From: Pseudomonadota bacterium
Lineage (GTDB): Bacteria > Pseudomonadota > Gammaproteobacteria > Burkholderiales > Sulfuriferulaceae
Direction of reading: 5' to 3'
DNA length: 64,000 bases
NCBI GenBank assembly: GCA_021801025.1
Contig: JAJYYK010000003.1
Span: forward strand, 1-64,000
Shown here: positions 1 to 6,385 of the stretch, in pieces
How positions within the stretch are numbered: position 1 is the stretch's first letter
Layout: every line of letters starts with the position of its first letter
The notes under the pieces: model-generated
What the model saw: only the letters and a program-made list of their open reading frames with translations
What the model was told of the DNA's origin: nothing
Database searches by the model: none
Position numbers and translations under genes: made by a program

Positions 1-587
1 TTGGCCAATATCGATACTTTGACATCGCCCATCAGCCCTAATTCAGTCACTAAAGCCTCAACGTCGCGTTGCGGGGTGACGGGCAATGTCACGGTGTATT
101 GATGCATACCCGCAGCCAGTGGGAGGGGTGCTTCAACCTGAACAACAGCTGGCGGGGCTGCTTCAACGGCCGCGACCGTGCCTTGCACAGGTTGGGGCGC
201 TTGTGCCGAAAGCTGATTCAGGCGTTTGCTGACTTCCGCCACCAGATCGTGCTCCACTGCGCTGCCGTGCCGATGTCCATCAATGAGCATGGTGAGCACA
301 TCTTTTGCGGCAAGAAAAGCATCGACATGGTCGGCAGTGAGTGTGATTTCGCCTTTGCGTATCCGGTCTAACAGGGACTCCAGCACATGCGTCATCTCGG
401 TAATGTCAACAAAACCGAATGTTGCCGCGCCGCCTTTAATCGAATGCGCAGTACGAAATATCGCATTCAATTCCTCCGTATCAGGGGCAGACACGTTGAT
501 GTTGAGTAATAAACGTTCCTTTTCGGCCAGCAACTCCATCGCTTCATCAAAAAAAGTCTCGTAAAACTGGCTCATATCTACTGTCAT
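1..587 (-). CDS. cheA: Chemotaxis histidine kinase CheA, N-terminal part (runs off window edge)
   Basis: This is the N-terminal 195 residues of CheA, the cytoplasmic kinase that passes phosphate from chemoreceptors to CheY and CheB. The frame stays open to base 1. The Hpt domain (about residues 5-105) holds the motif RTAHSIKGGAATFGF, with the phospho-accepting histidine at residue 48, the same number as in E. coli CheA. A Pro/Ala-rich linker follows (about 128-155), then the start of the next domain. The ATG at 587 is preceded by a very purine-rich Shine-Dalgarno stretch (AGGGGGGAA). No gene lies directly upstream, but a c-di-GMP riboswitch on the same strand lies about 600 bases upstream. 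The kinase and CheW-like domains are outside the window. Confidence 0.93.
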   Translation of the reverse strand, partial: MTVDMSQFYETFFDEAMELLAEKERLLLNINVSAPDTEELNAIFRTAHSIKGGAATFGFVDITEMTHVLESLLDRIRKGEITLTADHVDAFLAAKDVLTMLIDGHRHGSAVEHDLVAEVSKRLNQLSAQAPQPVQGTVAAVEAAPPAVVQVEAPLPLAAGMHQYTVTLPVTPQRDVEALVTELGLMGDVKVSILA

Positions 588-1184
588 TATTCCCCCCTGT
601 TTTACAGGCTGATCTCTAATGGTGTTGTTGTACAAATTAATTTTAATCAATACAGGCATATCCCTATATTCGTCTTAATGTTACGTCTGGCTACAGCGCC
701 GCAGAAATACCGGTCTCCGTCTTCATAACCTGCGTCAGAAAATCCACCAAGACTTCAATCAGGGGCGTCACAGATGAAGTTTTTACCAAATTAACCCGGG
801 AGTCTGTCGCAGCAGCAGAATACGCTTGCGGGGAATCACAAGAACTTGTCTTCGATGGACGTTATTTTGTGATGACATCTTCAATAACCCAAAGTGTAAA
901 GTCACCACGTCACCATAATGTTGCGCAATATTCAGATCAATTTGCCGCCTTGTAATGGTTGTGACAGTAGTTTTTTATGATGTTTATACGGCATACATAT
1001 GCTATAACACATTAATTACATTATATAATTAAAAATAACTTATCTTCATTGCCAGGAAATAACGGGTATAATAATGCTACAAAAAATCGAAATTTATTTT
1101 TTGTATCTTAAAGGCTGGAAGGCCATAAGACCTTCTATTATGAAGAGCTGGAGAATGGAGAATGCAGAAACGGCGCACACGACA
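588..1184. other. Gene-poor stretch between the riboswitch and cheA
   Basis: No convincing gene is present. Reading toward cheA there is a 7-bp hairpin (GAAGGTC-TTAT-GGCCTTC, about 1117-1134), an AT-rich 8-bp inverted repeat ending in T6 (about 1079-1102), and a very AT-rich block (about 970-1075). Further on, a 55-codon open stretch on the minus strand ends at 691 and resembles the last residues of a LysR-type regulator. This may be the long leader of cheA or the scar of a lost gene. Confidence 0.5.
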
Positions 1185-1185
1185 A

Positions 1186-1278
1186 GGTACGCCTTCGGCA
1201 GTCTCGCTATCATGAGGCTCACACCTTTTAGACCGAAAACTTTGCGTCTCTGACTTTCGTACAGATTTGCCTTTAAAT
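1186..1278 (-). ncRNA. Cyclic di-GMP-I (GEMM) riboswitch aptamer
   Basis: Read on the minus strand, the segment carries the GEMM-I signature elements in order: GGCAAA, a stem closed by a GAAA tetraloop (CTGTAC-GAAA-GTCAG), the invariant GACGCAAAG, a paired arm TCGGTCT, a short hairpin (GTGAG-CC-TCATG), the conserved ATAGCGAGACTGCCGA, and closure of the second arm. In this class the aptamer binds c-di-GMP at the junction of the two helices. A -10 box lies just upstream at 1287-1292. No canonical terminator or gene follows at once; the next same-strand gene is cheA, about 600 bases on. Motif order and spacing make the class assignment strong. The regulated gene is inferred. Confidence 0.85.
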
Positions 1279-1286
1279 ACAGCTTG

Positions 1287-1316
1287 ATTGTACCAGACCT
1301 GACTTTAAACTTCCAG
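1287..1316 (-). promoter_or_regulatory. Likely promoter for the riboswitch transcript
   Basis: On the minus strand a TACAAT -10 hexamer (1287-1292) sits 10-15 bases before the aptamer start, where a riboswitch transcript should begin. The -35 region, 17-18 bases further upstream (around CTGGAA), is a weak match. Confidence 0.5.
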
Positions 1317-1448
1317 CCCTCATCTTTACGTCATCAAGTTAGTGGTATAAATGAAACTGGACTAATTAAGACGCTGGCAAACCCCGGCAAATGAGAGTAT
1401 TCAAAAAGGAGAATTTTCTTGAGACTTGATGATTTTTTAGCAATAAGG

Positions 1449-1543
1449 CCATCGCCCATACGGGCGATGGATGTTCAGTTGGGAAGAGGTGCGCGTCCCC
1501 TTCCCAACCGCGCCCTAAAGGACGAGGTCTTAAACCGGCAAGG
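1449..1543. repeat. Palindromic repeat cluster (two hairpins plus CCTTGC-GGTTTAA motif)
   Basis: A perfect 9-bp hairpin (CCATCGCCC-atac-GGGCGATGG, 1449-1470) is followed by a second 9-bp hairpin (GTTGGGAAG ... CTTCCCAAC) and, in reverse orientation, CCTTGCCGGTTTAAGACC. The last motif resembles the repeat family found at 22003, 26467, 47228 and 59521. It is probably a non-coding mobile palindromic element. Confidence 0.5.
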
Positions 1544-1674
1544 AATTTCGATAAAGACAAGATAATGCCTTTTTGTGATAGCCAGATTCTGTAGATAATG
1601 AAACAGGTAAAGACAGATACACCTGAGCCTATCCACATTTTACAAATGACACGCCATCATGGAGCCATCCATGA

Positions 1675-1790
1675 TGGCGGTAACTATCAAGGAACTGGAA
1701 GATGAGCACCACCGACTCCAGAAGATATACTCAAAGCCGAGATGGTGCAGGAGGCGCTAGCAAAAAAGTGGTAAAGTTATCTCTGTGGCG
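1675..1790 (+). pseudogene. IS3-family transposase OrfA remnant
   Basis: The translation reads KELEDEHHRLQKIY and then, after a frame change, LKAEMVQEALAKKW followed by a stop. This order is typical of the leucine-zipper end of OrfA in IS3-family elements. At least one deletion or frameshift and a stop break the frame, and no intact OrfB or terminal repeats are visible, so this is a decayed scrap of an insertion sequence. Confidence 0.5.
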
Positions 1791-2113
1791 CGAGATGTCT
1801 GTACGATGCAAGTCAAACCAAACATGACCATCTTCGCAACATATGCTGCACTCAGCATCGGCCAAAGTGCTATCGTGCAGGCCAAGTTGTCATCGGGGAG
1901 TGGATATGTCGTTGATTGTCATAACGTACAGCAGGCAAATTGGCGATACCGTGCCTGATGAAGGAAGAAAAGCCGTAGAAATAATGTTTAAAAAAGCTGC
2001 CATAAAGCTGCCGAAATTTTGGCAACAATTGCCATACTTATGTCACGCCATACCAACTTTTTTGGCATTGTTTAAAACACAATACGTTAAACTAAACAAG
2101 TCACATAAAAAAA

Positions 2114-2200
2114 TGGTGCCGGGAGGGGGACTCGAACCCCCACAGTGTCACCACCGGCGGATTTTGAGTCCGCTGCGTCTACCAATTCCGCCATCCCGGC
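2114..2200 (-). tRNA. tRNA-Leu (CAA)
   Basis: An 87-nt cloverleaf read on the minus strand. It starts GCCGGGATGGCGG, has the D-loop AATTGGTAGAC, anticodon loop CTCAAAA (anticodon CAA), a long class II variable arm as expected for leucine, the T-loop GGTTCGAGTCC and a 3' end CCCGGCACCA with CCA encoded. Acceptor arm GCCGGGA pairs with TCCCGGC. It lies downstream of the fab genes, where acpP is usually found. Confidence 0.95.
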
Positions 2201-2533
2201 ATGATTTCAAGCAAAGACACTCGCTGAATCAAGCTGCGCATTATGCACGTAAAAATCGTTTTCCGCAATAGCCATCCCACCACAAAACCGCCACTTGAAA
2301 CCTGAAATTTCAGGGGTATACATCAAGCCGCTACGCGCAGGAAAATTTTGAAACAGAAATGATGTGTGAGTTTCGCATCAACAAGAAATGCCTTGCCGAA
2401 ATCCCGGTCTCCAACGTCTGGTCAGCACGGAATTGACGGGACAAGATTCGTACCAACCAGAAAAAAACGTCTTGATGTGGCATATACGTTATCCGGGTTG
2501 ACGGCATCCCCACCCGGATGAATTGCGCCATCC
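2201..2533. other. Intergenic region after fabG; acpP absent
   Basis: No acyl carrier protein or other recognisable product is found in any frame. A 68-codon frame on the minus strand starting at 2537 shows no family features. The only clear structure is an inverted repeat at 2491-2519. Confidence 0.5.
2491..2519 (-). terminator. Hairpin after fabG, possible transcription stop
   Basis: A perfect 8-bp inverted repeat (ATCCGGGT ... ACCCGGAT, 13-base loop) lies 15 bases past the fabG stop. It lacks a T-run, so it may be a Rho-associated or mRNA-stabilising hairpin rather than an intrinsic terminator. Confidence 0.35.
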
Positions 2534-3274
2534 TCAATCCATCACCATACCGCCATTCACGTGCAAGGTCGTACCGGTGATATAACCTGCCTCATTAGAG
2601 GCCAGAAAACCCACTGCATGGGCAATGTCTTCAACACACCCCAACTTGCCGAGCGGAATCATATTAAGCAGACCGGTGCGTGCAGCTTCGGGCATGGCGC
2701 GGGTCATATCCGTATCAATAAAACCCGGCGCTACGCAGTTCACTGTAATATTGCGACTGCCCACTTCGCGCGCCAGAGATTTTGAAAAGCCGATCATTCC
2801 TGCTTTGGCCGCAGCATAATTGGTTTGTCCTGCATTACCCATCACACCCACTACCGAGGCAATATTCACAATACGACCATGGCGCGCCTTCATCATGGGG
2901 CGCAACACTGCTTTCGACAAGCGAAACACCGAATTCAAATTGGTATCAATCACCTGATTCCAATCATCCTCTTTCATGCGCATCAGCAAATCATCGCGAG
3001 TGATTCCTGCGTTATTGACCAAAACCGAAACATCTCCAATGCGTTGCTGAATGTCGACCAAACCGGCTTCTATCGTTGCGGCATCAGTCACATCCAGCAC
3101 CATGCCATGCCCGACAAGACCTGCTGCGTGAAAATGTCGACTGATGGCTTCGGCTCCGGCGAGACTGGTTGCAGTCCCGACAACATAGTGTCCCTGGCGC
3201 GCCAAATGCAAAGCAATCGCCAAACCAATGCCGCGACTGGCCCCAGTAATTAATGCGATATGTTGCGACATCAT
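2534..3274 (-). CDS. fabG: 3-oxoacyl-[acyl-carrier-protein] reductase FabG
   Basis: FabG performs the NADPH-dependent first reduction of fatty-acid elongation in the cytoplasm. The 246-residue protein is a standard short-chain dehydrogenase: nucleotide-binding TGASRGIG at about 10-17, NNAG at 87-90, and the catalytic triad Ser140, Tyr153 and Lys157 (NYAAAKAG). The C-terminus ends GGMVMD, usual for FabG. Its ATG overlaps the fabD stop (ATGA), so translation is probably coupled. It closes the fab series here; acpP and fabF, the usual next genes, are missing. Confidence 0.96.
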   Translation of the reverse strand: MMSQHIALITGASRGIGLAIALHLARQGHYVVGTATSLAGAEAISRHFHAAGLVGHGMVLDVTDAATIEAGLVDIQQRIGDVSVLVNNAGITRDDLLMRMKEDDWNQVIDTNLNSVFRLSKAVLRPMMKARHGRIVNIASVVGVMGNAGQTNYAAAKAGMIGFSKSLAREVGSRNITVNCVAPGFIDTDMTRAMPEAARTGLLNMIPLGKLGCVEDIAHAVGFLASNEAGYITGTTLHVNGGMVMD

Positions 3275-4212
3275 AGCCCCCGATTCAAATTGCCTGAAAA
3301 TTCAATCATCGCCCCGTGATCGATCAGCGCAGTGCCCACCACCCGGCTATCAATACGTTTGATGAGTCCAGCCAACACTTTGCCAGGACCACATTCGCCA
3401 ATTTGGGTCACCCCGCTATCCGCCATGCGCACGATGGTTTCCACCCACCGCACGGGGGAGTACAGTTGCCGCGCCAAAGCGTCACGAATCGCGCCTGCGT
3501 CAGTGTGGGTCAATACATCTGCATTGTGGATCACAGGAACTGTCGGTGTTGAGATATTTGTGGCTGCCAGCGCATCCGCCATGGCATCGGCAGCATCCCG
3601 CATTAAGGCGCAATGCGATGGCACCGAGACCGGTAGCAACAATGCACGCTTGGCACCCCGCTCTTTCGCCAATGCCATGCCACGTTCCACTGCAGCTTGA
3701 TGACCAGCGATCACAACCTGTCCAGGCGAATTAAAATTCACGGCCTCCAGCACCAAACCTTCTGCCGCATCACGACACACGCCGCGTACAACCTCATCGT
3801 CCAAACCGAGTATTGCCGCCATCGCGCCGACGTTTTCCGGTACAGCGGATTGCATCAATTCAGCACGCAAGCGCACTAAACGCAAGGCATCACCAAATGA
3901 AATCGCGTCCGCAGCAACCAGGGCCGTGTATTCACCCAAGCTATGACCAGCAAGAAAATCAGGCTGTTGCCCCTGGATGGCCCGCCACACCCGCCACGTC
4001 GCTACGCCCGCCGCCAACATGGCTGGCTGAGTGTTCACCGTTAAATTAAGTTGTTCAACTGGGCCTTCATTCACCAATGCCCACAGATCCAGACCAAGGA
4101 CTGAAGATGCCTCAGAAAAGGTTTCCAGTACGAGGGGTGAATCAGCAATACCCTTCATCATACCCAGCGATTGTGAACCTTGACCCGGAAAAACGATTGC
4201 AAATTTATTCAA
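3271..4212 (-). CDS. fabD: Malonyl-CoA:ACP transacylase FabD
   Basis: FabD moves malonyl groups from CoA to acyl carrier protein to feed fatty-acid elongation. The 313-residue protein shows the oxyanion motif GQGSQ (10-14), the nucleophile elbow GHSLGEYTAL with Ser91, and the catalytic histidine in VPSHCALM. Length is normal. It lies 3 bases after fabH and overlaps fabG by four bases, in one transcription unit rpmF-plsX-fabH-fabD-fabG. Confidence 0.96.
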   Translation of the reverse strand: MNKFAIVFPGQGSQSLGMMKGIADSPLVLETFSEASSVLGLDLWALVNEGPVEQLNLTVNTQPAMLAAGVATWRVWRAIQGQQPDFLAGHSLGEYTALVAADAISFGDALRLVRLRAELMQSAVPENVGAMAAILGLDDEVVRGVCRDAAEGLVLEAVNFNSPGQVVIAGHQAAVERGMALAKERGAKRALLLPVSVPSHCALMRDAADAMADALAATNISTPTVPVIHNADVLTHTDAGAIRDALARQLYSPVRWVETIVRMADSGVTQIGECGPGKVLAGLIKRIDSRVVGTALIDHGAMIEFSGNLNRGL

Positions 4213-4215
4213 GAT

Positions 4216-5184
4216 TTAAACCATCCACTTTACTAGGGCGGATCCCCATGTGAATCCGCCGCCAAATGCTTCCATCAGCAACAGGTCTCCCGCACGGATA
4301 CGTCCATCACGCACGGCGGTATCCAGCGCCAGCGGAATTGATGCCGCCGAGGTGTTGGCATGGCGATCAACGGTCACCACCACCCTGTCCATAGACATAC
4401 CCAATTTTTTGGCAGTAGCTTCGATAATACGGATATTGGCCTGATGCGGCACCAGCCAGGTAATATCGGATTTTTGCAGATGATTGGCCGCTAAAGTTTC
4501 ATCAACAATTTCATCCAGCGTTTTCACTGCGATTTTAAATACCGAACTGCCTTGCATTCGCACAGCTGAAGACTTTTCCAAACCGCTTGAAACGCCTGCT
4601 TCGACATGGAGTAAATCACGATAACGGCCATCGGCATGCAAGTGTGTGGCGATCACACCCGCCGTATCACTGGCTTGCAAAATCACTGCGCCCGCGCCAT
4701 CTCCCCATAAAATACAATTGCTGCGGTCGCTCCAGTCGGTAATGCGCGACATGGTTTCCGCACCGACAACCAGTACACAACGCGCCTGACCTGCCCGAAT
4801 AAAATTATCTGCAGTCGCCAGTGCATAGACGAATCCGCTACACACAGCCTGCACGTCGAATGCCGGACACCGGTTTTCTATCCCCAGCTTCTGTTGTAAC
4901 AGACATGCGGTACTCGGAAATACCAAATCCGGCGTGGTGGTCGCCACCACAATTAAATCGATGTCTGCCGCATCAATTCCAGCCGCTTCGATCGCGCGTA
5001 AGGCAGCAGCATGGGCCAAATCGCTGGTGGTTTCATTTTTAGCCGCCAAATGACGCTGACGAATGCCGGTTCGCTCGACGATCCAATTGTCAGTGGTGTC
5101 GATTTGCTGCGCCAATTCGTGATTGGTCATAATTCTTTGGGGAAGGTAGGAGCCTGTACCCGTAATTTGAGCGTGTATTTTCAA
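4216..5184 (-). CDS. fabH: Beta-ketoacyl-ACP synthase III FabH
   Basis: FabH starts fatty-acid synthesis by condensing acetyl-CoA with malonyl-ACP. The 322-residue thiolase-fold protein has the catalytic cysteine in VQAVCSGF (Cys115), the histidine in VPHQANIRI and the asparagine in [12 protein letters not shown], the complete Cys-His-Asn triad. The [10 protein letters not shown] motif lies near the C-terminus. It begins one base after the plsX stop. Confidence 0.96.
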
Positions 5185-5185
5185 T

Positions 5186-6208
5186 TCAGGCAGCGTCCTT
5201 ATGTAGAATGGCTATTTTTTCAGTGATGCGTTGCAGCACCTGACTGCGCGCCTCTCGCACCGCCCGTTCAATGGCTTGTTCAAAGGCAAAGCGATCCGCC
5301 CCGCCATGGCTTTTAATGACTACGCCACGCAAGCCCAGTAACGTTGCGCCATTATAACTGCGCGGATCAACCCGACGTTTGAAAGCATTCAGCACCGGCA
5401 ACGCGATAACTCCCGCCAATTTGGTAAAGAAATTGCGATTAAATTCTTCTCGCAACATGGTAGACACCATTTTAGCCAATCCCTCGGAAGTTTTTAACGC
5501 AACATTACCGACGAAGCCATCGCACACCACCACATCCGTGGTGCCTTTATAGATATCATCGCCTTCAATATTGCCATAAAAATTCAGGCCGCTTTGTCGC
5601 AACAAATCAGCAGCAAGTTTGACCGTTTCATTGCCTTTAATGTCTTCCTCGCCAATATTGAGCAACCCCACTTTAGGTGCTTCAATGTGATCGATTGCTG
5701 CCACCAGCACGCTACCCATGATCGCAAACTGCAACAAATGTTCAGGGGTGCAATCGACATTGGCACCCAAATCCAGCATGACCGTATGGCCCTGTATGGT
5801 GGGTAACTCACTGGCAATCGCCGGACGGTCTATGCCCGGCAACATTTTCAATACAAACTTTGCCGTAGCCATCAACGCACCGGTATTGCCTGCGGAAACG
5901 CACGCGGCAGCATCACCTGTTTTAACCAGATTGATCGCTACACGCATCGAGGAGTCTTTTTTGTTGCGCATGGCAAAAGCGGGCGATTCGTCCATATCCA
6001 CCACTTCAGTGGCCGGATGAACAGACAAACGAGGGTTGTTCTGAGCGTGATGAGTATGCAATTCCCTTTCGAGAATATCGGGAATCCCAACCAGAATGAT
6101 GGTCAAAGCGGAGTCACGCGCCAGACATTTTAAAGCGGCGGGCACCACCACACGCGGTCCGTGGTCTCCCCCCATGGCATCTAGCGCAACAATCACCGAA
6201 TCGGTCAT
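5186..6208 (-). CDS. plsX: Phosphate acyltransferase PlsX
   Basis: PlsX converts acyl-ACP to acyl-phosphate, the substrate of PlsY in phospholipid synthesis. The chosen ATG (6208) gives 340 residues beginning [18 protein letters not shown], the conserved family start. An in-frame extension to 6301 is possible but has no family similarity. The motifs [17 protein letters not shown] and [11 protein letters not shown] are typical. It sits between rpmF and fabH in the standard order and links membrane lipid and fatty-acid synthesis. Confidence 0.93.
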
Positions 6209-6385
6209 GGAATTAAAAAGTACTGTAGTAGAAGATTCGGGCATTTTGCATCGGGCTGGGCAAACACACCGATGCATACGGAATTCAAATTGCCGCGCCA
6301 AATCAAAGCAATCAAAAATATCGCAAAATCAGAAACCTTGTACGACGAACGCATCTTCGCGGTCGCGCAAAGATCTCAAATGCGA

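Follow-up and report, generated by a model that had tools for sequence, protein, structure and literature searches.

A c-di-GMP-I riboswitch of a sub-type that heads chemotaxis genes in related genomes was found upstream of a second copy of cheA in the window analysed here, a 64-kb piece that opens contig C12, edge included, of a genome labelled G000. The riboswitch class is ordinary, and its new neighbour, cheA, is an instructive rearrangement. Judged from the sequence, the original target of the riboswitch appears to be gone, with the duplicated cheA now in its place. The most likely reading, to which we give a probability of about 0.55, is that c-di-GMP still controls this cheA copy, transcription presumably running on from the riboswitch into the gene. 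Contig C12 starts inside cheA, which is thus cut by the contig edge, and the gene occurs twice in the genome; both facts lay beyond the view of a preliminary description of this DNA.

The genome comprises 2.38 Mb in 20 contigs, and its genus was taken to be that of Sulfuriferula. Riboswitches were surveyed in 100 genomes, G000 among them, with a genus subset of 18 genomes that also includes it. The chemotaxis and flagellar names cheZ, cheV, cheY, cheR, cheD, cheB and flgL were assigned by eye, without Pfam.

Table 1. Features around the riboswitch, in window coordinates
Feature	Position	Strand	Basis
Second cheA copy, 5′ portion, truncated at contig edge	1..587	-	Hpt PF01627
Junction zone	596..606	-	End of similarity: 596 vs C2 copy, 605 vs G004 (blastn)
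Leader, no gene found	588..1193	-	Frames, composition, homology searches
Pyrimidine-rich stretch, possible Rho-loading region (weak)	1135..1175	-	Base composition, without chance control
Post-aptamer hairpin, probable switching element	1158..1205	-	GAGA.UGC.GAA.GGCGUAC pairs with GUGCGCC.UUC.GCA.UCUC
c-di-GMP-I (GEMM-I) aptamer	1194..1281	-	RF01051, 75.7 bits, E 4.5e-13, model 1-87 of 87
TG-extended -10-like box TGGTACAAT	1287..1295	-	Read by eye, not in consensus promoter scan
Terminator-like hairpin, inside dispersed repeat	1449..1470	-	Terminator scan
tRNA, upstream neighbour	2117..2200	-	RF00005, 60 bits

An intact c-di-GMP-I aptamer

A cmscan over the whole window matched the Rfam GEMM-I model over its full length on the minus strand (1281-1194), the score of 75.7 bits lying well above the gathering score of 35, and this is the single RF01051 match in G000. 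The riboswitch that had been proposed at 1186-1292 is thereby confirmed, since that span encloses the aptamer together with a TACAAT box. In the covariance alignment the aptamer carries a G at model position 11, which we take to be the ligand-selecting base, G20 in Vc2 and G11 in Cd1. The equivalence of G11 in Cd1 with G20 of Vc2 as the ligand-selecting position is given in PMC9262584. The window aptamer has the highest score within its sub-type, the other four members reaching 72.7, 71.3, 70.0 and 61.9 bits, and is therefore not decayed. In its letters it is a normal, intact and working-looking c-di-GMP-I aptamer, which would be expected to bind the ligand. The surrounding RNA region (1060-1300) folds with a z score of -2.95, two of 200 shuffles being equally stable.

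Regarding the promoter, the -10-like TACAAT at 1292-1287 stands just upstream of the aptamer and is preceded by a poor -35, as read by eye. A -10 box had been described at the right distance from the riboswitch; it is present to the eye and was not listed by a consensus scan for sigma-70-type promoters across 560-1500, which found none where 2.5 are expected by chance.

The first gene downstream had been named as cheA, behind a leader of some 600 bases, and both statements hold. The stub at the contig edge encodes 195 residues (frame 587-3) with an Hpt domain (PF01627, E 3e-18), its relative in G004 being a full frame of 670 residues. It lies on the strand of the riboswitch, with 606 nt between the aptamer end and its ATG at 587.

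A sub-type that heads chemotaxis genes

In the survey, 42 of the 100 genomes have c-di-GMP-I matches with E no higher than 0.001, and the cut-off is exceeded in 41. Within the genus, 15 matches were found in nine of the 18 genomes, one of them under the cut-off. Apart from that of the window, eight of these stand before DUF1631 genes (loci L031, L033, L034, L036, L038, L041, L042 and L044; by Pfam for L031 and by like N-termini for the other seven), two before other genes, and four belong to the sub-type of the window. The two other genes are a hybrid histidine kinase identified by Pfam (L032, the riboswitch match being under the cut-off) and the first gene at L035.

The sub-type is defined by the window riboswitch and four others, at 81-88% DNA identity to it, which were found in G011, G014 and G012 when the 18 genus genomes were searched. 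G011 and G014 have the riboswitch followed by cheW, mcp and a GGDEF/EAL gene. G012 contains it twice, the first place being followed by cheW and mcp, and the second by a truncated cheW-like frame and then a GGDEF/EAL gene. Pfam confirmed CheW, MCP and GGDEF-EAL in G011 and GGDEF-EAL at the second G012 place, the remaining assignments being made by sequence likeness. The distance from the aptamer to the start codon of cheW, or of the cheW-like frame, is 267 nt in G011, 169 nt in G014, and 273 and 392 nt in G012. With chemotaxis genes behind the sub-type in three congeners, a chemotaxis target is also expected for the window riboswitch; in the window the first gene is cheA instead of cheW. The locus had been described as lacking an obvious target, which is now largely explained: the usual target is missing and a second cheA copy sits there, downstream of a sub-type that heads chemotaxis genes in congeners.

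A search of named genomes with the exact sub-type pattern gave one match, a Sulfuriferula MAG (an exact match was required, and G000 itself may be outside the set searched). An orthologue of the GGDEF-EAL gene of the sub-type was also sought in G000; the best of 23 matches (57%) lies inside a frame of 1210 residues and was read as non-orthologous.

In the wider order, Pfam was applied to 11 of the 58 first genes outside the genus, picked by eye and hence non-random, and returned four MCPs, one MotB with OmpA, two response regulators with PilZ, two DUF1631 proteins, one subtilase and one adenylate/guanylate cyclase. The automatic choice of first genes was crude, with five rows empty and several doubtful. 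DUF1631 is also found behind c-di-GMP-I riboswitches in other families (L154, L020), hinting that the DUF1631 protein may have a role linked to c-di-GMP. At L008 and L018 a c-di-GMP-I riboswitch precedes a response regulator fused to PilZ, so that a c-di-GMP sensor RNA heads a probable c-di-GMP-binding protein.

The leader and the upstream region

The leader of 606 nt compares with 169-392 nt in the sub-type relatives. Past the hairpin that follows the aptamer, the leaders of the sub-type do not align convincingly, and that of the window is like none of the loci compared; against those loci, blastn gave one 22-base match (E 0.12) and tblastx nothing at E 1. A search of the leader for remnants of cheW, mcp and GGDEF-EAL by tblastn had a best E of 0.18. 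A decayed target in the leader thus found no support; a LysR-like tail (VTPLIEVLVDFL...) suggested by reading the frames also received nothing from Pfam for its 34-residue piece at E 1. The scan for terminator-like sites listed no intrinsic terminator on the minus strand from 1194 to 588, and the arrangement of an intrinsic-terminator riboswitch, with a G+C-rich hairpin and a T run before the gene, is absent. An A+T-only hairpin in the leader fold was judged by eye not to be a terminator. From about 1114 to 975 the leader has 75-80% A+T and holds a perfect TATAAT (1025-1020), which could provide a separate cheA promoter.

Upstream of the riboswitch, the terminator-like hairpin at 1470-1449 was the only such site found in 560-1500, where 0.7 are expected, so that the count is no higher than chance; it may shield the riboswitch from the upstream tRNA and fab genes. 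The tRNA is, by eye, a leucine tRNA, from its CAA anticodon and long variable arm. An island bounded by a repeat of the tRNA 3′ end was rejected, as the tRNA alone matches within the window. Part of a dispersed intergenic palindromic repeat occupies 1436-1555 on the minus strand and has 16 further matches on nine contigs, C12 included; in a C11 copy the repeat halves are 40 nt apart, and the inner part is missing in the window copy. It looks like a non-coding mobile repeat. Beyond it, an IS3-like relic (1633-1797), with short frames only, has 66-79% DNA identity to eight plasmid records, in two of which the region is annotated as an IS3 transposase.

These features bear on the main rival reading, in which the riboswitch has been stranded: its cheW-mcp target was lost by insertion and decay, the leader RNA stops early or is broken down, and the second cheA copy is silent or has a promoter of its own elsewhere in the A+T-rich leader. 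The TATAAT is the main support for such a history, and the lack of any target remnant in the searches, the relic and repeat just upstream, and a leader exceeding those of the relatives would also fit it. We nevertheless regard it as less likely than continued control by c-di-GMP, given that the aptamer, which has the top score of the sub-type, and its hairpin are intact, and that no terminator-like site precedes cheA. In addition, the second cheA copy has just two amino acid changes among 17 nucleotide changes, which implies that it is, or recently was, under selection or gene conversion.

Two options had been offered for the locus, namely that c-di-GMP controls the chemotaxis operon by way of a long leader or that the target in between has decayed, and a mixture of the two is favoured. 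The chemotaxis target is what the three congeners lead one to expect, and the original target does seem to have gone; a duplicated cheA has come to occupy its place, and the searches of the leader found no remnant of it.

A second copy of cheA

A search of the genus with the 195-residue stub as query found two near-identical cheA starts in G000, C12:3-587 and C2:337128-337712, which differ at 17 of 585 nucleotides and 2 of 195 residues. They differ from the G004 gene at 45 and 43 nucleotides. Being closer to each other than to G004, the two copies separated, or underwent their last conversion, once the lineage of that genome had branched off. Window positions 1-596 match C2 at 97.1%, and positions 1-605 match G004 at 92.2% (blastn), so that the similarity ends 9 nt and 18 nt, respectively, before the cheA ATG. 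The sequences there show a one-base difference in a G run and a few more like letters beyond it, which places the junction at about 596-606. Upstream of the Shine-Dalgarno region the two G000 copies share almost nothing. C2 has the same pair of genes upstream of cheA as G004, the closest relative, in which the gene is the only close cheA; C2 is therefore taken as the ancestral cheA place and the window as the new one.

The last 127 nt of C2 are identical, as reverse complement, to the first 127 nt of C12, at which point both contigs stop, and this is the behaviour of a two-copy repeat in an assembly with k=127. Altogether, eight pairs of G000 contig ends meet in a 127-nt match. The 3′ part of cheA, and what follows it into cheZ, is absent from the G000 assembly. 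When the G004 che operon was used as a query, C8 matched at 93% only from 6251 onward; positions 607-6251 gave matches of 70-80%, which were read as other che genes, with nothing for 608-3259. No close CheW was found in the G000 contigs, the best match having 31%. As the smallest contig has 17.9 kb, short contigs were probably dropped from the assembly. The start of C8 within cheZ would suggest a shared repeat extending from cheA as far as cheZ, and the duplicated part is perhaps a whole che operon.

Duplication of cheA was observed in two of the 18 genus genomes, the other being G013, which consists of three contigs and has two copies with equal scores (G013:C1:2029165 and 2996126), each followed by a like cheW, suggesting gene conversion or a recent duplication. 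Regarding gene order, the G000 flagellar cluster at the start of C16 has flgL and then mcp, with no cheA or cheW between them, and G004 (C97) has the same flgL-mcp order, with an 89% match over 2872 of 3000 nt. In G009, G011, G013 and G014, cheA is downstream of flgL. Genes named by eye as cheR, cheD, cheB, cheY and cheZ stand at the end of G000 C7. At the starts of C14 and C15 there are two similar GGDEF-EAL-like genes near contig edges that share 127 nt, probably another collapsed repeat.

The adjacency of riboswitch and cheA might in principle come from chimeric assembly or from mixed strains, as the contig breaks 587 nt into the gene and the assembly lacks the shared repeat. We consider this very improbable, because the cheA ends, with 17 differences in 585 sites, run into an exact overlap of 127 nt, which is how true repeats behave in de Bruijn assembly, because the contamination of the genome is listed as 0, and because G013, with its three contigs, also has two equal-scoring copies at different places.

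A hairpin predicted to compete with the aptamer

All five sub-type members, the window being one of the five that define it, have a stem of 7-8 pairs at a fixed place directly after the aptamer. Compensatory changes on both sides of the stem occur at positions 11, 13, 15, 16 and 19 (at position 15, for example, C-G, T-A and G-C); four of these five positions depend on one diverged member, either L040 or L039, with the partners taken from the fold of each sequence instead of from an independent alignment. The 52-nt piece of the window has a folding energy of -20.9 kcal/mol, where mononucleotide shuffles have a mean of -12.0 (sd 2.8), and across the sub-type the energies of such pieces are 2.1 to 4.4 sd lower than those of mononucleotide shuffles. 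No stem is rare when taken singly, since 153 to 904 of 5000 shuffles reach it. The 5′ arm of the hairpin shares bases with the 3′ strand of the aptamer. The lower part, which takes up that strand (GAGACUGC), has one form shared by three of the five members (window, G011 and G014) and a different form in both G012 members. With the Rfam pairs of the aptamer forced, the fold has -50.4 kcal/mol, against -61.5 for the free fold, and thus gives up about 11 kcal/mol of stability when the energy of ligand binding is left out of account; the hairpin is mostly kept and loses the GAGA/UCUC pairing plus one more pair. Aptamer and full hairpin therefore exclude each other in part.

That the RNA acts freely, as a small regulatory RNA or a c-di-GMP sponge without a target in cis, would suit the stretch of 606 nt without a gene and the structured 5′ part, but it is the least credible of the readings, since all four relatives have a frame on the same strand within 400 nt, in one case a truncated frame resembling cheW, and no terminator-like 3′ end is found near the hairpin.

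Under the preferred reading, that of continued control of cheA by c-di-GMP, the old chemotaxis target of the riboswitch (cheW, mcp and GGDEF-EAL) would have been replaced by the second cheA copy, probably followed by further genes of the che operon. The incoming cheA would have brought its own ribosome site and left its old upstream region behind. Since the junction lies just upstream of the Shine-Dalgarno sequence, the promoter of the riboswitch is the most likely origin of transcription. With ligand bound, the aptamer 3′ strand (GAGACUGCC) would be kept in the aptamer; without ligand, it would lengthen the downstream hairpin by pairing with UUC-U-GCA-UUCUC. Because no intrinsic terminator follows and the gene is too far away for direct masking of its start, our guess is that the hairpin governs access of Rho. 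Bound c-di-GMP might then leave the pyrimidine-rich stretch free for Rho, leading to early termination and less CheA. In the first 60 nt past the aptamer the window has 30% C and 20% G, the four relatives having 25-40% C and 13-17% G, and the window shows a smaller excess of C over G than any of them; control by Rho, and its OFF direction, are offered as a guess, weakly inferred. The fuller picture, which we put forward tentatively, is that a c-di-GMP riboswitch with adaptor and receptor genes as ancestral targets captured a duplicated core che operon, which might place one of the two near-identical CheA kinases under c-di-GMP through a terminator-free switching hairpin and leave the other independent, as a form of gene-dose control of the chemotaxis core.

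Comparison with known systems

As far as is known, the second messenger c-di-GMP mostly acts on chemotaxis through proteins. If the preferred reading is correct, a riboswitch before a duplicated cheA would link the level of c-di-GMP in a simple way to how much of the chemotaxis core is made, and the pair of copies, only one of which lies behind the riboswitch, would provide a natural control. The locus would also illustrate how a riboswitch gains a new target, through a duplicated gene landing behind a pre-existing leader, and the terminator-free hairpin of the sub-type is open to direct testing. Our literature search found no paper combining a riboswitch with Sulfuriferula.

With respect to the c-di-GMP-I family (RF01051), the window aptamer is alike, being full-length with the G at model position 11, and no difference in the aptamer was noted; the window differs in the sub-type-specific part downstream, after which there is no terminator-like site. 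The riboswitches of G011, G014 and G012 have the same post-aptamer hairpin in addition to their 81-88% identity, but theirs precede cheW at 169-392 nt, whereas that of the window precedes cheA at 606 nt. PMC11218506 describes Bc1 of Bacillus thuringiensis, like the window element a c-di-GMP-I riboswitch with a long expression platform. According to that paper, Bc1 has two intrinsic terminators, in contrast to the window, where no terminator-like site was found, and is frequently upstream of MCP genes, so that c-di-GMP-I riboswitches before MCP genes are already known in print. Four riboswitches of the same order (L177, L182, L183 and L186) share the link to chemotaxis, in that a chemotaxis receptor (Pfam MCPsignal) comes first; these receptors are different ones, their leaders are shorter, with frames starting 49-223 nt downstream, and cheA, the first gene in the window, comes first in none of the four.
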